Below, piece after piece: positions 8,247 to 57,184 of a stretch of 64,000 nt of DNA (its first letter is position 1; every line of letters begins with the position of its first letter). Position numbers and translations under genes: made by a program. The stretch spans positions 1 through 64,000 of the forward strand of contig NZ_QOLD01000073.1 of the NCBI RefSeq assembly GCF_003333305.1. The letters run 5' to 3'. Below the pieces are notes generated by a model that saw nothing but the letters and a program-made list of their open reading frames with translations, made no database searches and was not told the DNA's origin. Source of the stretch: Candidatus Colwellia aromaticivorans (GTDB taxonomy: Bacteria > Pseudomonadota > Gammaproteobacteria > Enterobacterales > Alteromonadaceae).

Positions 8247-8317
8247 TATACCCATGTTACTTCAATATGTCGGATTCAGCTGCCCTGAAACGCACATCTT
8301 GAAGTATCATGGGTATA
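8247..8317. mobile_element. Minimal M2-family palindromic element
   Basis: A 71-base element with 23-base terminal inverted repeats, TATACCCATGTTACTTCAA... and its complement ...TTGAAGTATCATGGGTATA, differing at two positions. The core keeps CAGCTGCCCTGAAACGCA, found also near the ends of the 314- and 267-bp copies at 17531 and 56918. It is probably an internal deletion derivative. Lies eight bases past the argR stop and may act as its terminator. Confidence 0.7.
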
Positions 8318-16623: not shown

Positions 16624-17448
16624 TTATTTATTTTGCTTAGAAATCAAATCATAGGCTGCTTGAATATCTTGCGTCTTTTCTTTCGCTGCTTCCATCATCG
16701 CTGGCGGTAAACCTTTTGCAATTAATTTATCCGGATGATGCTGCGACATTAATTTTCGATAGGCTTTTTTGATATCACCAATTGAGGTCTCTTTATTAAC
16801 GCCCAAAACTTTATAAGCATTATCAAGTTGCCCGGCTCTGGTCGGTGCATTATCACCATTAAATTGCTGATAGCCTTGCCCTGGTTGTTGATGAAAGGAA
16901 GCACTAGCAATAATCATTTCTAATAAATTATCTAACTGACGAGCTGAGTAGCCTAAAAATTTAGCAATAGTGTGTAAAACTTCACGTTCTTTACTGTCTA
17001 AATCACCATCAGAAAAAGCAACTTGAATTTGAATTTCTAAAAACATCAATCGTAGATCATGGCGGTTACCACAAATTCGCTTAAATTTAACCAAGCGATC
17101 TTTTAATGGAAATCCGTCCGATTTGCCTTCACGAAAAGCATCTTGTGCTTGTTCTCGCAATTCATTCGTTAGCCCAAGTTTGTCCATGTAAGCATTAGCA
17201 AAAGCAATTTCATGATTAGTCACCTGTCCTTTAGCTTTAGCAACATGTCCCATCACCGAAAAAGTGGTGTAAAAAAAAGCGGCTTGACGGGCGACATCAT
17301 CAGATTTCCCTCCCGTTATGCCATCAAAATCAAAGCCTCTACCTCGATCAAACATATGACCAAGCCAAACACCTAATAAAGCGCCAAATAAGCTTTTACT
17401 CAACATAAAGCCAAATAAAAACCCTAAAATTTTCCCCCAGATACGCAT
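16624..17448 (-). CDS. djlA: Co-chaperone DjlA
   Basis: A 274-residue membrane-anchored J-domain protein that stimulates DnaK. A single N-terminal transmembrane segment is Gly-rich (GFLFGFMLSKSLFGALLGVW). A TerB-like central domain follows, and a C-terminal J domain carries HPD at 238-240 (SQHHPDK). A Gln/Gly-rich linker separates them (about 186-205). It is divergent from lptD, as in E. coli. Confidence 0.96.
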   Translation of the reverse strand: MRIWGKILGFLFGFMLSKSLFGALLGVWLGHMFDRGRGFDFDGITGGKSDDVARQAAFFYTTFSVMGHVAKAKGQVTNHEIAFANAYMDKLGLTNELREQAQDAFREGKSDGFPLKDRLVKFKRICGNRHDLRLMFLEIQIQVAFSDGDLDSKEREVLHTIAKFLGYSARQLDNLLEMIIASASFHQQPGQGYQQFNGDNAPTRAGQLDNAYKVLGVNKETSIGDIKKAYRKLMSQHHPDKLIAKGLPPAMMEAAKEKTQDIQAAYDLISKQNK

Positions 17449-17530
17449 GCTTATTTTATTACCTTATTCTTTATTTGCTATTTACGTGCTACGCCTATAG
17501 CCAAACCACCTCAAGATGAGGGTTTGGGTA

Positions 17531-17844
17531 TATACCCATGATACTTCAAGATGTGCGTTTCAGGGCAGCTGAACGATTCATGATCAAGGCGCATCTTTTT
17601 ATTAAGGGTCGTTCAGGAGAATATACTCCTGCATTCTCTAATAACACCATCCATGTAGCGCCCTTAAAAAGAGATGCAACGAAGAACATGATTTGATCAG
17701 GGGCCCCTGTAAAGCTGGTTTAGAAACGCTTTATGCTACGTTATTGATTTCGACAATGGAGCAACCATTATCTTCAATCAAAGCCTTGCCTAAAGACGTT
17801 TCTAACTCCTGCTGAATCCGACATATTGAAGTAACATGGGTATA
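17531..17844. mobile_element. M2-family MITE-like element, 314 bp
   Basis: Bounded by TATACCCATGATACTTCAAG and TTGAAGTAACATGGGTATA. The interior is non-coding with its own hairpins. The 267-bp element at 56918-57184 is an inverted relative: its reverse complement matches the left end through the phrase CGATTCATGATCAAGG. It lies between djlA and lptD, so it occupies their shared promoter region. Confidence 0.75.
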
Positions 17845-17912
17845 GCTACAATATTATATTTGCTATATCATATACGCTTCATCACGTATATTTAAGATAA
17901 CCTTAAAAATAA

Positions 17913-20237
17913 ATGCTTTTTTTCCGACAAATCTTTTCCTGTAGCGTTATATTAGCGATAGTATTGCCTTTCCCTGCGTTTGCAATTACTACTGAGCAAG
18001 AAGCTACAGAACCGCAACTTCAATGTGCTATTCCAACTTTTGTACCTATAGCAACTGATGCTGTGCAAATAACCGATGATAGCATTCGTATTACCTCAAA
18101 GTACTCCAGAATTGAAAAAGATCGAGTTGCCAGCTTTAGTGGTGATGTCACGCTAATCGATAAAAGCCAAACTATAACGGCTGATCAACTAACATTTGAT
18201 CGATTACTGATGCAATTTAATGCGCACGGAAATATACATTATCAAAACCAAAGCATTGATATTCTTGCTGACGAGCTAAATGCCAGTAAAGATGATAAGT
18301 CCAGTGTTATGCTTAATACCTCGTATCAACTGTATGGCAACCCCGGTCATGGTAGTGCCGGTGAATTACAACTCAACTCAACTGAGGGATTAAGTTTATT
18401 AGATTCAACCTATACAACCTGTATTGGTGAAGAACCTGATTGGCTGATAAAGGCATCTGAGATTGAAATATCAGCCGATGGTAGCACTGGCGAAGCTTAT
18501 CATGCCCAAGTTCGACTTTTCGATGTACCTGTTTTGTATTTACCTTATTTTTCATTTCCCGTTTCAAAACAGCGAAAAAGTGGTTTTTTATATCCTAAAA
18601 TTGGTAGTTCCAGTAATTCAGGGCTAGAAATTGAAACGCCTTATTATTGGAATATAGCCCCCTTTATGGACGCAACTTTTACACCTCATTATATGTCTAA
18701 ACGGGGTACACAATTAAAAACTGAATTTCGTTATTTAACTGAGCTGCAATCAGGTAATATTAATATAGAATACTTAAATAAAGATAATGAAATAACGTCA
18801 AACGATGACGCCCGTTATCTTGCAAGGCTACAACATGTAGGTACATTTTCAGATGATTTTCGTGCCTATATTGATTATACGACCATCAGTGATGACAACT
18901 ATTTAGTTGATATCGGCTCAAAAGAGTATAATTCAAACGATGCTTATTTGTATCAAGTAGGTGAACTTTCTTATTTTGGGGAGAACTGGCAAACTACAAT
19001 GAAAATACAAGATTTTGAAGTACTTGGTAATCACCAACCAAGCTATAAAACCTTGCCTCATATTGAAGTTTTAGCCCAACAACCCTTCAGTCTTTTCTCT
19101 GAGCAAACATTACAAGGACAATTTGAACTCTATTCTGAATTAACAAGCTTTAAAGCCGAAACCAATCAACAAGCCAGCGCTAATCGTTACCATGTAGAAG
19201 CGGGGTTAAGTTTTCCGGTTTCGACCCCTGCGTGGTTTTTAAATTCAGAGTTTAAGTTAATGCATACTTATTACCAACAAAGCGACATTCAAGATGGCAG
19301 TGAATTAACAAAAAATGTTAACCGTACGCTCCCTAAAGTAAGGTTTCATGGCGGCATTAATTTCGATCGAACGCTATCCTGGTTTGGTAATAATTACACC
19401 CAAACCATAGAACCACAAATACAATACTTATATATTCCTGAAGAAGATCAAGCAGATATTGGTCTCTACGACACGACTAATTTGCAAGATGACTATAATG
19501 GTTTATTTAGAGACCGAAGTTATAGTGGTTTAGATAGAATTGCCGGTGCCAATCAATATACTTGGGGTATAACAAGCCGAGTACTTGATCAATCAAACCT
19601 GGAAATTTTTCGTTTAAGTGTCGGTCGAATACAATACTTATCTGACAATAATACTTTTGATGAACTCATTGATACTGTCGATGCCGATATCGACTCTCTA
19701 ACAAGTCAGCAATCCTCTGTAGCCGCAAATTTATTTTATCGATTAAATCACAGATGGCAAATCAGTAGTGATATTCAATACAATACGATGGAAAGCTTCA
19801 CCAACAAAAGCCAAGTGTCACTAAACTATCAAATTGATAAATATAATTCAGTTCAATTGAACCATAGGTACACTCGTAATGTCTCAGGTAGTAGCTTAGA
19901 GCAAGCTTCAGTATTGGCTAGCTTTGCTATTAATAAAGACTGGGCTTTTGTAGGGCGACTTACCGAGGACTTAAAACAAACCCGTAGTTTAGAAAGTTAT
20001 GCTGGCTTGCAATATGAGAGTTGCTGCTGGGCTATACGCGTTGCGTATCATAGATATATAAACTCGAACTTAAGCGATGATGGCTTATTCAATGAAAACC
20101 GCGATGAATTTAATAGTGGTTTCGTGCTACAGTTCATCATCAAAGGGCTAAATGGCAAACAAGGGGCTATTGGCACACAAGAAATGTTTGATTCAAGTAT
20201 TTTCGGCTATAAACGCCCTTACTACTTACAAAATTAG
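17913..20237 (+). CDS. lptD: LPS-assembly outer membrane protein LptD
   Basis: A 774-residue outer-membrane beta-barrel that inserts lipopolysaccharide at the cell surface with LptE. It has a signal peptide (to about residue 24, ending FPAFA), an OstA/LptA-like N-terminal domain (about 50-200: [22 protein letters not shown]) and a large C-terminal barrel. Conserved cysteines (Cys38; Cys169; Cys-Cys in [15 protein letters not shown]) are in place for the interdomain disulfides. First gene of lptD-surA-pdxA-rsmA. Confidence 0.97.
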
Positions 20238-20313
20238 TGGTTTACCAATCTAACGACTAATAAAATCAAGTATATAAAAACTAACAATGCACCATAACCA
20301 AGATATATAATTC

Positions 20314-21612
20314 ATGAAAAATTTAGTTAAAATATTAATCCTCACCTGCACAATTTACGCAGGGTTAACTACGCAAGTTCAAGCTAAAGAAGAAATGCTA
20401 GACAAGGTTGCCGTAATTGTTAACGCTGGTGTAGTACTAGAATCAGAAGTACAAGACTTACTGAAAAACATAAAAAAACAAGCAAAACAAAATAATCAAG
20501 AGCTACCTTCTGACAAGGCATTACGCACACAAGTCATGGATAAGCTGATTAATGACAGTTTAACTGTACAAATTGGTGAGCGTATGGGCATACAAGTTAG
20601 TGATGCTCAATTAGATCAAACCATTGCTAATATGGCCAAAGAAAATAAATTAACCTTATCTCAGTTTCGCCAAGCTATCATTAATGATGGTGATAATTAT
20701 GAAAAATATCGTGAAAATGTTCGTACCGAGCTAATTTCAGGTGAAGTACGCCGTAATAGTGTCAGACGCCGTATTTATATTTCACCACAAGAAGTAGCTA
20801 ACTTATTAGAGTTAATGAAAGAACAAATTAACAATGATGTAGAATATCACCTTGGTCATATTTTAATTGAATTCCCTACGGATGCTACACAAGCTGATAT
20901 GATCGCAAGTAAAGAGCGAGCTGATAAAGTTATTGAACTGCTCAATAGAGGCTCAGATTTTACTAAAATTGCTATCGCCTCATCAGGCGGCGCAAATGCC
21001 TTAGAAGGCGGTGATTTAGGCTGGAAAAACATCAACGAAATGCCAACACTATTTTCAGAGCTCATTGCAGGAAAAAATAAAGACACGGTAGTAGGCCCAA
21101 TTCGAACAGGCTTAGGTTTTAGTATTGTAAAAGTACTCGATATCCGTGGTCGTCAAGTAGTTGAAGTAGAAGAAGTAAAAGCTAGCCACATCTTAATAAA
21201 ACCTTCTATCATTTTAAGTGAAGCCAAGGCAGAAGCGCAATTACAAGATATGCTAGATAAAATTAATGCTGGAGATGCAACGTTCGCCGACTTAGCCAAA
21301 GAGTTTTCTGAAGGACCTACCTCTGTTCGTGGTGGCGATTTAGGCTGGGCAGATCCCAAAAGTTATGATCCTGCATTTAAGAAAGCATTAGCCACCATGA
21401 AAATTGGTGAATACCACAAACCATTTCGTTCTTCTTTTGGTTGGCACATTATTCAGTTAAATGATCGTCGTATGATTGATGCTACCTCACAAATGAACCA
21501 AAATCGCGCTTATCAAATATTACATAATCGTAAGTTTGGTGTTGAAAGCGCTAGATGGATCAAAGAAACTCGCGATGAAGCTTATATCGAAATTTTTGAA
21601 CAGGATAAATAA
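20314..21612 (+). CDS. surA: Periplasmic chaperone/peptidyl-prolyl isomerase SurA
   Basis: A 432-residue periplasmic chaperone for outer-membrane proteins including LptD. It has a signal peptide (ends TQVQA, about residue 24), the N-terminal SurA chaperone module ([19 protein letters not shown]) and two parvulin domains with HILI motifs ([11 protein letters not shown] and [11 protein letters not shown]). Length matches the family. It lies 76 bases after lptD and two bases before pdxA. Confidence 0.97.
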
Positions 21613-21614
21613 AA

Positions 21615-22598
21615 ATGACTACACGCATAGCCATTACTCCCGGTGAGCCCGCAGGCATAGGTCCTGATCTAGTTGTTTCTATAGCTCAGCAGGCTTGGCC
21701 TGTACAACTTGTCGTCGTAGCATCAAAAGAGCTAATAAAACAGCGTGCTGAACAACTAAATTTACCGATAGTATTAATTGATTACGATGCTAACCTTGAC
21801 GCTATTCCTCAAGCCGCTGGTACGTTAACCATATTAGATATACCACTTGCTCAAGCGTGTATTCCTGGCACTCTTGATACAAGCAACGGTGCTTATGTAG
21901 TTGAAACCTTGAAAGTGGCTAGTGATAAAAATATGTCAGGGGAATTCGAGGCAATAGTAACCGGCCCCGTACATAAAGGTTTAATCAATAAGTCGGGGGT
22001 TCCTTTTAGCGGACACACCGAGTATTTTGCGCTTCAAGCTAACTGCTCTGATGTCGTAATGATGTTAGCTACCAAAGGATTACGTGTTGCATTAGTGACT
22101 ACTCACATACCACTTGCCTATGTAGCAAAAGCCATAACTTTTGAGAGATTGCAGAAAGTAACTCGTATTCTGCATACAGACTTAAAAAGTAAATTTGGCA
22201 TAAAAAATCCGAAAATATATGCTTGCGGCATTAATCCACATGCAGGTGAAGATGGTCATTTAGGTCGAGAAGAAATAGAAGTAATGGAGCCAGCATTTGC
22301 CGAATTAAGAGCAGAAGGCATTAATGTCATTGGTCCCCTACCAGCCGACACTATATTCCAAGAGAAATACTTAGAAGATGCGGATGCTATTTTAAGTATG
22401 TACCATGATCAAGGTTTACCTGTATTAAAATACAAAGGCTTTGGTTCATCCGTTAATATTACTTTAGGTTTACCTTTTATTCGCACCTCTGTTGACCATG
22501 GAACTGCATTAGAACTCGCAGGCAATGGAGCAGCAGACTCTGGTAGTATGATAGAAGCCATTAACAGTGCAATCGCTCTAGTAAATAGCAGTAAGTAG
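21615..22598 (+). CDS. pdxA: 4-hydroxythreonine-4-phosphate dehydrogenase
   Basis: A 327-residue NAD-dependent enzyme of pyridoxal 5'-phosphate synthesis. Family motifs include [13 protein letters not shown] at the N-terminus, [20 protein letters not shown], and the metal-site histidines in [13 protein letters not shown] and [11 protein letters not shown]. The start is two bases after the surA stop and is translationally coupled. Length is normal. Confidence 0.98.
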
Positions 22599-22640
22599 TA
22601 GTCCTTCGACAAGCTCAGGATAAGCGGTTCACGAAAACGA
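22599..22640. repeat. REP-like element between pdxA and rsmA
   Basis: CCTTCGACAAGCTCAGGATAAGCGG lies directly after the pdxA stop inside the operon. It is the single-unit form of the sequence that is tandemly repeated at 52051. Confidence 0.6.
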
Positions 22641-22664
22641 AAACGAAATGTTAAACGAGAAATT

Positions 22665-23537
22665 ATGAACAGTAAAACCCATTTAGGTCACCAAGCAAAA
22701 AAACGTTTTGGCCAAAACTTTCTTCATAATGATGCCGTCATCAGCGACATTGTTGATGCTATTAATCCTGAGCCTGGAGAAAATTTAGTCGAAATAGGTC
22801 CAGGTCTTGGTGCGTTAACGGAGCCAGTAGTAGAGCGAGCAGAGAAATTATCGGTAGTAGAGCTTGATAGGGACTTAGCTAAAAGGCTACGTCATCATCC
22901 ATTTTTGGCGCCACACTTAACTATTTATGAAACCGACGCTTTAAACTTTGACTTCGCCCAACTAGCAACAGAGAAAAAACCATTACGCATTTTTGGCAAC
23001 CTCCCATATAACATTTCCACACCGTTAATTTTCCACCTATTAACGTTTAAAGATAAAGTTCAAGACATGCACTTTATGCTGCAAAAAGAAGTCGTTCAAC
23101 GCATGGCTGCTGGGCCACACTGTAAGGCTTATGGTCGATTATCAATTATGACCCAATACCAGTGCCAAGTAATTCCAGTGATGGAAATAGGTCCAGAAGC
23201 ATTTAAACCCGCACCTAAAGTTGATTCTGCTATAGTGAGATTAGTGCCACACAGTAATATTAAAAATCCAGTAAAAGATATAAGTGCCCTTAATACAGTC
23301 TGTTTGGCTGCATTTAATCAACGCAGAAAAACCATTCGCAATGGCTTTAAAAACCTCATTAGTGTTGCACAATTAGAAGCGCTAAATATTGATGCCAATT
23401 TACGTCCCGAAAATTTAACCCTTGATGATTACATCATGCTGGCTAATTTTATTGTTGATAATCCACCAGAGCCAGTTAAAGTTGATAATAAAAAACTTTC
23501 ACGACGGGCTATGAAAAGAGCAGAAGAGCAAGATTAA
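22665..23537 (+). CDS. rsmA: 16S rRNA dimethyladenosine transferase RsmA (KsgA)
   Basis: A 290-residue SAM-dependent methyltransferase that dimethylates two adjacent adenosines near the 3' end of 16S rRNA. Visible are [11 protein letters not shown], the SAM loop [12 protein letters not shown], the acidic residue in VVELDRDLA and the catalytic NLPYNIS. The C-terminal helical domain includes [13 protein letters not shown]. It lies in the pdxA-rsmA-apaH order, but apaG, usually next, is absent. Confidence 0.98.
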
Positions 23538-23574
23538 TCGCTAAATTTTGAGAGTGAACTTTTTCAAAAAAATA

Positions 23575-23705
23575 CTACCTGTATGCAGCGTTTTAAAGAA
23601 TGAATAACACATTATCCTGAACAACCATTTTATTCAATCAACGCCTATTTTAAAAGCGTTTCTAATATCAGCTGAATTCTGCATATTGAGGTAACATGAG
23701 TATAT
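23575..23705. mobile_element. Eroded right half of an M2-family element
   Basis: The sequence from ACGCC...AAAGCGTTTCTAATATCAGC through GCATATTGAGGTAACATGAGTATA parallels the right half of the 314-bp element (GACGTTTCTAACTCCTGC then ACATATTGAAGTAACATGGGTATA). The terminal ACATGAGTATA contains the apaH start codon, and GAGG of the repeat end is its ribosome-binding site. Confidence 0.6.
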
Positions 23706-24535
23706 ATTTAGTCGGTGATATCCAAGGCTGTTACAGCGAACTAACTGCTTTATTAAAACAGGTCTCTTTCAATAGCAAAGTCGATCAACTTTATGTCGCG
23801 GGTGATCTTGTTGCTAGAGGACCCGACTCTTTAGCAACGCTACGTTTTATAAAGTCACTTAATGATTCTGCAAAAGTAGTACTTGGCAATCATGACCTTC
23901 ATTTACTTGCCGTTTATGCAGGTATTAAAAAAGTAAAAAAACAAGACCGACTCAATGCATTGCTCGATGCTGACGATGTTGATGAATTAATAAATTGGTT
24001 AGCCCAACAACCCTTATTACAAAAAATAGGCAATGATAGCGCCTACATGAGTCATGCCGGCATTTCCCCTCAATGGACTTTAGCCCAAGCAATAGAGCAA
24101 GCAAACTTTGCCCAACAGCGACTTAGCTCTAGCAATAGAAACGCTTGGTTATCGTCAATGTACGGTGAAAAACCAAATGATTGGAAAGATGCCAAAAGCG
24201 AGATAGAAAAATTTCGCTATACAATCAACTCATTTACTCGCATGCGTTACTGTTATAGAAATAAAAACCTAGAATTTGAAAATAAATCCGCTCCCAGTAC
24301 TATTCACAACAACCAACAATCAAACATAACTTTATTACCTTGGTTTGAGTTATCATCGACTATCAATGAAACACCTTGGGTTTTTGGCCATTGGGCTGCG
24401 CTAATGGGTGAATGTTCCCATCAAAACATCTATCCATTAGACACAGGATGCGTTTGGGGCAATCATTTAACACTGTTACGCTGGCATGATAAAAAACTCT
24501 TCACTGAACCTGCACACAAAGCACCAAGTAAATAG
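23696..24535 (+). CDS. apaH: Bis(5'-nucleosyl)-tetraphosphatase, symmetrical
   Basis: A 279-residue metallophosphatase that splits Ap4A into two ADP and removes Np4 RNA caps. Metal-binding motifs are GDIQGCYSEL, GDLVARGPDS, GNHDLHLLAV and SHAGISPQW, with FGHWAALMGE near the end. A low-complexity insert occupies about residues 195-210. The ATG has GAGG five bases upstream; this whole initiation region matches the end of an M2 element. apaG is missing between rsmA and this gene. Confidence 0.97.
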   Translation: MSIYLVGDIQGCYSELTALLKQVSFNSKVDQLYVAGDLVARGPDSLATLRFIKSLNDSAKVVLGNHDLHLLAVYAGIKKVKKQDRLNALLDADDVDELINWLAQQPLLQKIGNDSAYMSHAGISPQWTLAQAIEQANFAQQRLSSSNRNAWLSSMYGEKPNDWKDAKSEIEKFRYTINSFTRMRYCYRNKNLEFENKSAPSTIHNNQQSNITLLPWFELSSTINETPWVFGHWAALMGECSHQNIYPLDTGCVWGNHLTLLRWHDKKLFTEPAHKAPSK

Positions 24536-24624
24536 ACATAAGGGATAAAAAAGCAGCGAGGCTTGATATACTCAAAACGTTAGCCAAATTCATCTTTTAA
24601 ATATATATTCATAAAAATCGTCGT

Positions 24625-51192: not shown

Positions 51193-52047
51193 ATGAATTC
51201 AAATATGATTGCAATTAATTTAGAAAATTTCCAACAAGTGGTATTAGAAGAATCAAAAAACAAACTTGTTTTAATCGCATTCTGGGCAGATCAAGTACCA
51301 GAAAGCATTCAATTAAGAGATGCACTATCAGCAAAGGTACAGCCTTTTGGTGAACAAATGCTGATGGCATCTCTTGACTGTCAAAGCCAACAACAAATAG
51401 CACAGCAATTTGCTATTCAAGGTTTACCAACGGCTATTTTAGTGAAAGATGGGCAACCACTTGATGGTATTTCAGGGCCACAAACCGATGAAAGTATTGC
51501 CACCTTTTTAGATAAACATTTACCTAAAGCTCAAGATCTATTACTAGCTCAAGCACAAACTGCATTAACGGAGAATAAGTTAGCCGAAGCGCAAAATGCG
51601 ATAAATCAAGCTTATCAACTTGATGCTGAACGCGCCGATATTAAACTCGTGTTAATTGATGTTTACATTCAAACAGGAAATACCGACGAAGCACAAGGGC
51701 TACTAGAAACGATAATGATGGTAGATCAAGATAGTTACTACCAAGCATTAGTCGCTAAACTTGAACTTGCCAACCAAGCAGCTAATTCGCCAGAAATTCA
51801 AGCATTAGAAGCGCAACTTGCCAGCAAACCTGATGATATAGAAATTAAACATCAATTAGCGGCACAATACAGCCAAGTCAATCGTCAAGAAGAAGCATTA
51901 ACCTTGTTATTTCGCTTAGTGCAAAGTGGCGACCCCGAAACAAAAGACAAAAGCAAAGAGCTGTTTTTAGATGTATTAAAAGCGCTACCTGATGGTGATG
52001 TTATTGCGACTAAATTTCGCCGCAAATTGTATACGCTTTTGTACTAA
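51193..52047 (+). CDS. cnoX: Thioredoxin-like chaperone CnoX (YbbN)
   Basis: A 284-residue protein with an N-terminal thioredoxin fold and C-terminal TPR-like helices (LLLAQAQTALTENKLAEAQN onward). Where thioredoxin has WCGPC this has WADQVPES (31-38), lacking both cysteines, as in CnoX, which acts as a holdase handing clients to GroEL/DnaK. FRRKLYTLLY at the end is the conserved tail of the family. Confidence 0.93.
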   Translation: MNSNMIAINLENFQQVVLEESKNKLVLIAFWADQVPESIQLRDALSAKVQPFGEQMLMASLDCQSQQQIAQQFAIQGLPTAILVKDGQPLDGISGPQTDESIATFLDKHLPKAQDLLLAQAQTALTENKLAEAQNAINQAYQLDAERADIKLVLIDVYIQTGNTDEAQGLLETIMMVDQDSYYQALVAKLELANQAANSPEIQALEAQLASKPDDIEIKHQLAAQYSQVNRQEEALTLLFRLVQSGDPETKDKSKELFLDVLKALPDGDVIATKFRRKLYTLLY

Positions 52048-52050
52048 CAC

Positions 52051-52425
52051 TTCGACGGCTACACGTTCAGGATGAACGGAGTGTTTACCGCTTGACCTTC
52101 CTTCGACTGCTACGCGCTCAGGATGAACGAAGTGTTTACCGCTTGCCCTTCCTTCGACTGCTACGCGCTCAGGATGAACGGAGTGTTTACCGCTTGACCT
52201 TCCTTCGACGGCTACGCGCTCAGGATGAACGGAGTGTTTACCGCTTGTCCTTCCTTCGACTGCTACGCGCTCAGGATGAACGGAGTGTTTACCGCTTGCC
52301 CTTCCTTCGACTGCTACGCGCTCAGGATGAACGGAGTGTTTACCGCTTGCCCTTCCTTCGACTGCTACGCGCTCAGGATGAACGGAGTGTTTACCGCTTG
52401 CCCTGAGCTTGTCGAAGGGTCGAAA
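52051..52425. repeat. Seven-unit 51-bp REP-like tandem array
   Basis: Units of 51 bases begin TTCGACTGCTACGCGCTCAG at 52051, 52102, 52153, 52204, 52255, 52306 and 52357. The first is the most diverged; later ones differ at one to three bases. The array closes with CCTGAGCTTGTCGAAGGG, the inverted form. Because 51 is divisible by three, frames stay open (17-residue repeats), but I consider these artefacts. Lies between cnoX and the convergent zapE. Confidence 0.92.
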
Positions 52426-52431
52426 CTGGAG

Positions 52432-53547
52432 CTACGGTAAATGCTCACTCGCTAAATAGTCATGCGATTGCATTTCTTGTAGACGGCTCAAACAACGTCT
52501 AAATTCGAACGCTAAATTACCACCCGTATATAATTCTTCCAGTGGATATTCCGCTGACATAATAAGCTTAACATTACGCTCGTAAAACTCATCAACTAAG
52601 GCAATAAAGCGCCGAGTACTGTCATCACTTTCATGTCCCATCTGCTTAACATTAGCCATTAATACCGTGTGGTAGAGTTGACTAATTTCCATATAATCAC
52701 CTTGGCTTCTAGCGCTTTCACATAATACTGAAAAATCAAAATAAACAACACCGTCAGAAACACATACCGTGTTTAATTGGCGATTATTGATTTCAATATC
52801 AACACCTTTTTCACCTGGCTCACAAGAAAGTTGCTTAAAGTAAAGCTGCAAATTTTCACTTGCTTGTTGATCCAGTGGGTAATGAAAAATTTCAGCTTGT
52901 TCTAAGGTACGTAATCGATAATCAACACCACTATCAACATTAATAATGTCAGTGTGCTCATTAATCAACTTGATCGCAGGTAAAAAACGCTCCCGTTGTA
53001 AACCATTGCGATATAGCCCATCAGGAATAATGTTGGAGGTGGCAACTAAGGTAACATTATGTGAAAACAACTCTTCAAATAAAGTACCTAAAATCATAGC
53101 ATCGGTTATATCAGAAACAAAAAATTCATCAAAGCAAATAATTCGAGTTTCGCTGGCAAACTTTTTAGCAATAATTTTTAATGGATCTGACTGACCTGTT
53201 AACCCCTTAAGCTCTTGATGCACTCTATGCATAAAGCGATGAAAATGGACTCTCATTTTATTTTCAAAAGGAAGGCAATCATAAAAAGTGTCAACTAAAT
53301 AGGTTTTTCCTCGTCCTACACCCCCCCAAAAATACAGGCCTTTAATTGGCTTGGATTCTTTTTTTGCATAAACTTTTTTCCAGCGATTCAATACCTTTTT
53401 AAAGCTAGATACTTTAAGCGGCTTAATTTGTAATTCTTCATATAAGCGCTGCAAATGTTTAACTGCATTTTCTTGCGCAGCATCAAAAATAAAATCATCT
53501 TTTGTTAGATCTTGTTTATATCTGTCAATTGGAGAAAGTTTAATCAT
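52432..53547 (-). CDS. zapE: Cell division ATPase ZapE
   Basis: A 371-residue AFG1-like ATPase that associates with the divisome and affects FtsZ ring dynamics. Walker A is GGVGRGKT (75-82); Walker B is IICFDEFFV; the FDEFFVSDITDAM stretch is family-typical. Length matches E. coli (375). The order zapE | zapG-degQ-degS follows E. coli. Confidence 0.96.
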   Translation of the reverse strand: MIKLSPIDRYKQDLTKDDFIFDAAQENAVKHLQRLYEELQIKPLKVSSFKKVLNRWKKVYAKKESKPIKGLYFWGGVGRGKTYLVDTFYDCLPFENKMRVHFHRFMHRVHQELKGLTGQSDPLKIIAKKFASETRIICFDEFFVSDITDAMILGTLFEELFSHNVTLVATSNIIPDGLYRNGLQRERFLPAIKLINEHTDIINVDSGVDYRLRTLEQAEIFHYPLDQQASENLQLYFKQLSCEPGEKGVDIEINNRQLNTVCVSDGVVYFDFSVLCESARSQGDYMEISQLYHTVLMANVKQMGHESDDSTRRFIALVDEFYERNVKLIMSAEYPLEELYTGGNLAFEFRRCLSRLQEMQSHDYLASEHLP

Positions 53548-56917: not shown

Positions 56918-57184
56918 TATACCCGTGTTACTTCAAAATGCAGGATTCAGCTGGAATTAGAAACGTCTTTAGGCAAGGCATTGATTGAAGATAATAGTTG
57001 TTCTATTGTCGAAATAAATAACGCTGCTTAAAACGTTTCTAAACCAGCCCTACGGGGATGTCTGAGTAAATCATGCTCTTCGTTACATCTGTTTTTAAGG
57101 GAATAACCCTTAATAAAAAAATGCTCCTTGATCATGAATCGCTCTGGCATCCTGAAACACGCATTTTGAGGTATCACGGGTATA
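56918..57184. mobile_element. M2-family MITE-like element, 267 bp
   Basis: Ends TATACCCGTGTTACTTCAA and GAGGTATCACGGGTATA. Inverted relative of the 314-bp copy at 17531: GAAACGTCTTTAGGCAAGGC and TGATTGAAGATAATAG face the same phrases there. Non-coding. It follows degS by 22 bases. Confidence 0.75.

Follow-up and report, generated by a model that had tools for sequence, protein, structure and literature searches.

The rsmA-apaH boundary analyzed here raises the question of where the translation start of the housekeeping gene apaH came from, and whether the event that produced it also took away apaG, the neighbour that is missing between the two genes. The window, i.e. the whole stretch of DNA that was analyzed, comprises 64,000 nt of the 3.75 Mb genome, in 101 contigs, of a cold-sea bacterium (G000), the nearest named relatives of which are Colwellia MAGs. 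In the window, rsmA and apaH are separated by 158 bp (Table 1), and ApaH is full length by TIGR00668, with residues 1-275 matched. We find that the predicted apaH start is formed by the end of a MITE, here called M2, and that the loss of apaG is, judged from related genomes, a separate, older and genus-wide event that preceded the arrival of M2.

Table 1. Features of the rsmA-apaH region and M2 copies used for comparison, in window coordinates.
Feature	Position	Strand	Basis
71-bp M2 copy, internally deleted	8247..8317	+	
314-bp M2 copy, reference	17531..17844	+	
rsmA (16S rRNA dimethyltransferase)	22665..23537	+	NCBIfam TIGR00755, 285.9 bits (cut-off 171)
gagagtga, probably left over from the ribosome-binding site of the old apaH start	23550..23557	+	by-eye comparison with the left flank in L003
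Right end of M2 MITE, left half eroded	23616..23704	+	86-nt alignment to two window copies, 0/500 shuffles
Terminal 23 nt of the MITE	23682..23704	+	same in L001 and L003; L002 differs by one synonymous change
In-frame TGA within the terminal repeat, two codons 5' of ATG	23687..23689	+	
GAGG, candidate Shine-Dalgarno	23688..23691	+	predicted duplex with anti-SD, -7.0 kcal/mol
ATG AGT ATA, predicted start codon and codons 2-3, from the MITE end	23696..23704	+	L004 empty versus L003 filled site
apaH, symmetrical Ap4A hydrolase, 279 aa	23696..24535	+	NCBIfam TIGR00668, 338.3 bits (cut-off 222.85)
TA target-site duplication	23703-23704	+	L004 empty versus L003 filled site
267-bp M2 copy, best aligned to the apaH relic among three compared copies	56918..57184	-	

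M2 has the properties of a MITE family, consisting of many small copies with no transposase gene inside; the window copies of 71, 267 and 314 bp are too short to hold one. Both ends read TATACCCATG... inward, for example in the 314-bp and 71-bp copies, and thereby form terminal inverted repeats. The 17-mer GARGTAACATGRGTATA has 9 matches in the window at up to three mismatches compared to 0.65 expected, and the genome as a whole contains 252 M2-like ends at this threshold compared to 12 for the reversed control. An M2-like right arm, as in the 314-bp copy, is also present in four large Pseudoalteromonas replicons, extending over 129 nt at 74-76% and, in the fourth, over 79 nt at 82%.

With a score of 77, the region upstream of apaH aligned to the end of the 314-bp copy over 86 nt; against the 267-bp copy, taken as its reverse complement, the score was 87, and neither score was equalled in 500 dinucleotide shuffles. 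When the last 17 nt were left out, the scores were 53 and 68, respectively, again with 0/500 shuffles. The M2 alignment extends across the apaH ATG up to the terminal TA. A preliminary description of this DNA had placed the element over positions 23575-23705, which holds for about 23616-23704, whereas 23575-23615 has no clear similarity to M2; it had also assigned the terminal GTATA to codons 2-4, while the last bases of the element are in fact codons 1-3. No Rfam matches were found at the gathering threshold over 17400-24600, and a promoter and terminator scan returned 2 promoter-like sites, with 1.1 expected, and 0 terminators. Elsewhere in the window, 51999-52457 is a tandem repeat of a 153-nt unit in seven registers at 51-nt spacing, 68-97% alike to the reference.

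We compared the rsmA-apaH gap at 30 loci of the genus, the remaining 7 of the 37 searched genus genomes lying outside this comparison. The M2 tip coincides with the apaH start at three of the 30: the window (L001), L002 (SRR3933376_bin.5) and L003 (NORP29). In L003 the rsmA stop is followed by a short spacer, gagagtaaATGGCTG, then TATACCCATGATATGTC... and finally ...TTGAGGTAACATGAGTATATATTTAGTTGGT, and this filled site holds the old start, ATGGCTG/TATACCC, on the left and the new start, GAGGTAACATGAGTATATATTTAG, on the right. The old start runs for five codons, MAVYP, before it meets a stop in the element. An exact empty site, ATGGCTGTATATTTAG, is present in L004 (DT_18), where the locus reads gagatcaaATGGCTGTATATTTAGTTGGT and the corresponding junction is ATGGCTG/TA/TATTTAG. 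Given a duplication of TA, the junctions of L003 and L004 agree to the letter (ATGGCTG-TA-[TACCC...GAGTA]-TA-TATTTAG), which places the insertion point within codon 3 of the old apaH. Of the element, 186 bp remain in L003 and 53 bp in L002, in which the old ATG has become ATC (by eye); in the window both the left end of the element and the old ATG, which in L003 follows the gagagtga-like site, are lost. Among the other 27 loci, 22 are without an M2-like insert, with -1 to 40 bp between the two genes, and five carry an M2-related insert with different ends and an M2b-like interior (scores of 90-173 versus shuffle maxima of 27-36), the apaH start being untouched.

The M2-related insert of L018, L019, L020, L027 and L029 (gap of 269-326 bp) has the ends TACCAATTTGACT...TCAAAATGGTAT and is placed at the rsmA stop codon. 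This stop is TAG in L017 and TAA in the five carriers, and the element end may have rebuilt it. The carriers are scattered on the tree, with L027 beside the empty L030 and L029 beside the empty L024. L015 has only aatggtatag.

The empty, filled and decayed sites show the following course of events. An M2 element with terminal repeats ending in ...GARGTAACATGRGTATA inserted at a TA in apaH codon 3 and duplicated this TA, cutting off the old start codon and ribosome-binding site from the gene. Read outward, its right terminal repeat has GAGG as predicted Shine-Dalgarno and, after a spacer of 4 nt, an ATG. The phase of the insertion placed this ATG in frame with apaH, such that the predicted N-terminus was altered only from MAVYLVGD to MSIYLVGD. 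The spacing to YLVGDIQG is kept; GDIQG, which we take to be part of the phosphoesterase motif, makes up residues 7-11 of ApaH. Afterwards the terminal repeat was retained, while the remainder of the element decayed (window), was mostly deleted (L002) or partly persisted (L003).

In the window, L002 and L003 the frame reads TGA GGT AAC ATG, with no other start between the stop and the ATG, and the in-frame TGA two codons upstream means that no apaH start further upstream is possible. Furthermore, codons 2-60 contain no ATG, GTG, TTG or CTG in the apaH of the window or of L003, and only a GTG at codon 6 in L002. With the native start displaced, the M2 ATG is the first start remaining, as befits an exapted start. 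The predicted Shine-Dalgarno duplex (GAGGT) amounts to -7.0 kcal/mol in the three M2 species compared to a median of -2.9 in the other 27 loci, one of which (L009, -8.0) exceeds the M2 carriers. GAGG is not rare among M2 ends, occurring in 22 of the 122 ATG-bearing ends of the genome, and its presence at apaH does not require selection. Between L001 and L003 the terminal 23 nt are identical (23/23), whereas the rest of the aligned arm matches at 51/66 positions (Fisher p 0.007, with the border chosen post hoc). The preliminary description proposed a MITE end as the source of the apaH start; this is borne out by the empty site in L004 and the longer element with the old start in L003, and its assignment of GAGG as Shine-Dalgarno and of the ATG at 23696 as start gains support from the predicted duplex and the upstream TGA. 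The tip of the element now appears to act as the apaH start signal, and we infer that ribosomes initiate at the new ATG; such insertions presumably survived only where the frame fitted.

An equal capture of a gene start would have taken place at two further genes. In the gene for 5-formyltetrahydrofolate cyclo-ligase on contig 18 of G000 (TIGR02727, 167.3 bits), the left flank retains the former start as ATGACTAAGCCTTTAT, after which come TA, the element and GAGGTAACATGAGTATAAACCCTACTGAACTC. The frame of the former start gives MTKPLLYS and ends at a stop codon within the element, and the N-terminus is changed from MTKPLL..PTE to MSINPTE. Among 30 loci listed, uninterrupted starts of matching sequence are found in L251, L254, L256, L258 and L260, that of L258 reading ATGACTAAACCTTTATTAATACCTACTGAA. 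The TA duplication is consistent here, and the fit between empty and filled sites is close, not letter for letter, many of the 30 loci being too divergent at this position to compare; the predicted empty site departs from the relatives at codon 7 (AAC versus ATA or others). The M2 end seems to have displaced the cyclo-ligase start in G000. An orthologue of the second gene, encoding a DEDD-type 3'-5' exonuclease, was sought in 14 genomes, of which G008 and G030 gave none. The site is uninterrupted in 10 of the 12 genomes with the orthologue, G000 included (L392, L393, L394 and L396-L402), while L391 contains the insert and L395 a decayed one. In G019 the left flank ttctaATGGGCA is followed by the element and then GAGGTAACATGAGTATGCATTCA; the decayed copy of G017 has ATA in place of the M2 ATG, with the nearest ATG located at the very tip. 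The tip of the element, and with it the right copy of the target sequence, is TG and not TA in both carriers. Here, too, the M2 end seems to have displaced the gene start, in two relatives.

The distributions of the two inserts among genomes conflict: that at apaH is present in G000, G018 and G019 and not in G017, and that at the exonuclease gene in G017 and G019 and not in G000 or G018, and no single tree fits both unless recombination, lineage sorting, loss or a repeated insertion is assumed. G027 (L005) is without the apaH insert, yet it is not resolved outside the three carriers; in the protein tree the carrier group is supported at 55.6/58, and the order differs in the DNA tree. We prefer recombination between close relatives as the reading of these distributions, as a conjecture.

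To what extent M2 ends open into genes was surveyed across G000 and its relatives. In G000, 133 distinct ends were read, about half of the 252 matches; 122 have an ATG, the median outward frame is 11 aa, and three open into genes (apaH, cyclo-ligase and rsxB). A joint survey covered ATG ends that had 330 nt or more of downstream sequence, 265 in total, 131 from G000 and 134 among the matches listed for G017, G018 and G019, with 11 ends left out as too short. Among the matches listed, ten showed a frame of at least 100 aa from the M2 ATG: apaH three times, the cyclo-ligase, the exonuclease, four additions before an intact native ATG, and L299. The last of these, in a presumably SCO1-like gene, was left uncounted as a start capture, since the motif is present with no element body in the flank shown. 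We also rejected as a rule that M2 ends serve as gene starts, as most of the examined ends start nothing. The four in-frame additions lie a few bases 5' of the intact native ATG of rsxB and mutM in G000 and of rnd and an ion-channel-like gene in G019. An in-frame M2 ATG need not be used, as mutM warns (L192, contig 99 of G000 near 110270): here the M2 end puts an in-frame ATG four codons upstream, MSIYMPELPEVE. Fpg needs a proline directly after the initiator Met, this proline being catalytic, and hence the native ATG of mutM must be used or the enzyme would be dead. Beside gene starts, the M2 ends of the joint survey showed no frame preference (5/24 in frame, with first start codons at offsets of -1, 1, 2, 3, 4, 5 and 7 from the M2 end; a tally made by hand with start codons taken without orthologue comparison), and thus no sign of targeting.

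Upstream of rsxB there is a full M2 element in G000 and none in G017 (L209); in G018 (L208) the upstream cagATGAGTATAATCATGAAT resembles a bare M2 tip with the body deleted. In L049, L152, L190 and L293, M2 ends are inserted at the TA of TATG with the ATG of the gene kept; the frame from the M2 ATG gives MSI and is closed by the overlapping ATGA, and translational coupling is possible.

Whether the new apaH start brought any benefit is a separate matter. We consider the chances about even that the arrival of the M2 end was neutral, i.e. that the start was neither better nor worse than the old one and that any in-frame SD-ATG would have sufficed. Consistent with this, insertions beside gene starts lack a frame preference (5/24); against it, the M2 end has been held over a dS of about 0.6-0.7 while the body of the element decays. 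This retention points to purifying selection on the present start rather than to an advantage at its origin, and the stronger predicted Shine-Dalgarno would allow an advantage at the origin. A more far-reaching idea, which we regard as doubtful, is that the outward SD-ATG is a maintained property of M2, a portable start cassette by which an insertion into the first codons of a gene would repair some of its own damage, such that gene starts are re-founded repeatedly. It is very improbable that apaH is decaying in the carrier lineage and its start therefore irrelevant: the neighbouring apaG has already been lost, as might be expected of such decay, yet the apaH frame is open in all three carriers, and dN/dS is 0.08-0.11 among L001-L003 at a dS of 0.63-0.72.

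The preliminary description was right that apaG is missing between rsmA and apaH, and the gene is in fact absent from the entire assembly (PF04379, 0 matches). It is likewise absent from all 37 genomes of the genus that were searched (0/37), while a sample of the family has it in 137 of 147 genomes and in 50 of 52 genera, the ten genomes without it including the five members of the genus that were drawn. In the sister genera Cognaticolwellia and Thalassotalea, apaG lies between rsmA and apaH. Nine NCBI records named 'Colwellia', C. polaris among them (L084-L088 and L090-L093), have apaG; a tree of rsmA-apaH groups these records with Cognaticolwellia or Thalassotalea and not within the genus that the genome collection delimits. 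C. maritima (L098) has a short rsmA-apaH gap and no apaG. Outside the family, G037 (L045) has apaG between rsmA and apaH with a match of only 33.5 bits, far weaker than in the other 14 matching genomes. The suggestion that the insertion itself removed apaG and rebuilt the initiation region in a single event, for which the missing gene and the element in its place might speak, is contradicted by this comparison of relatives: apaG is gone from insert-bearing and insert-free members of the genus alike, 22 of the 30 loci having no M2-like insert and the short gap described above, and in the left flank of L003 the old apaH start follows the rsmA stop after a short spacer. We therefore give the single-event explanation next to no credence; apaG was lost first, across the genus, and M2 arrived later, in a few species. 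Nor is it at all credible that the native apaH start is unchanged, with the element just upstream and the likeness of GAGGTAACATGAGTATA to the MITE end due to chance, for while short SD-ATG motifs are common and most examined M2 ends start no gene, the 86-nt arm match runs past the ATG to the terminal TA, and L003 has both starts, the old one to the left of the element and the new one at its right end. Taken as a whole, the observations are very probably explained by an insertion of M2 in apaH codon 3 that created a new in-frame start, with the loss of apaG as a separate event.

Known repeat families share some of these properties, and MITEs within genes and as gene ends have, as far as the sources cover, already been described (RPE, ERIC/RU and BOX). 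Rickettsia palindromic elements are small non-autonomous repeats that lie in frame in housekeeping genes and are tolerated (PMC10969869). According to the same source they are translational fusions with a conserved peptide, whereas the M2 tip would replace initiation signals with a net change of +0 residues in ApaH; in place of an in-frame peptide insert of the RPE type, the contribution of the element to apaH is confined to the first three codons. The ERIC/RU-1, RU-2 and RU-3 elements are MITE-like repeats that form gene ends, including N-terminal parts (Delihas 2007; PMC2759123), but there the reading frame of the repeat is fused, whereas M2 carries an outward SD-ATG in its terminal repeat and has empty sites; the text of PMC2759123 nowhere uses 'start codon', 'initiation' or 'ribosome' (0 occurrences). 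In pneumococcal BOX elements, boxC can encode a start codon with a frame ending beyond the element (Croucher 2011; PMC3049150); the BOX frames are described as matching only hypothetical CDSs, without good Shine-Dalgarno candidates, while M2 is found at conserved enzymes with GAGG. Correia/NEMIS elements are TA-ended MITEs that affect neighbouring genes (PMC2229807), by way of putative promoters, an IHF site, RNase III processing and ORF fusions as reported there, in contrast to the putative translation start in the terminal repeat of M2. The 'new start codon' in PMC5678879 refers to a transposase gene. Among open PMC papers, by titles and abstract beginnings and with the terms used, we found no report of a MITE end as Shine-Dalgarno plus start of a conserved gene. 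Nor did we see in this literature a terminal repeat that provides conserved genes with both SD and ATG and for which empty sites are described.

The rsmA-apaH locus documents how a conserved gene came by a new, probable translation start: relatives provide the empty site, an intermediate in which the old start persists, and the decayed end state. It also shows how a MITE may land in coding sequence without killing the gene. If the idea of a portable start cassette were true, M2 would spread at lower cost to its host while repeatedly re-founding gene starts. The genus is a setting suited to counting and testing how genes acquire their starts.
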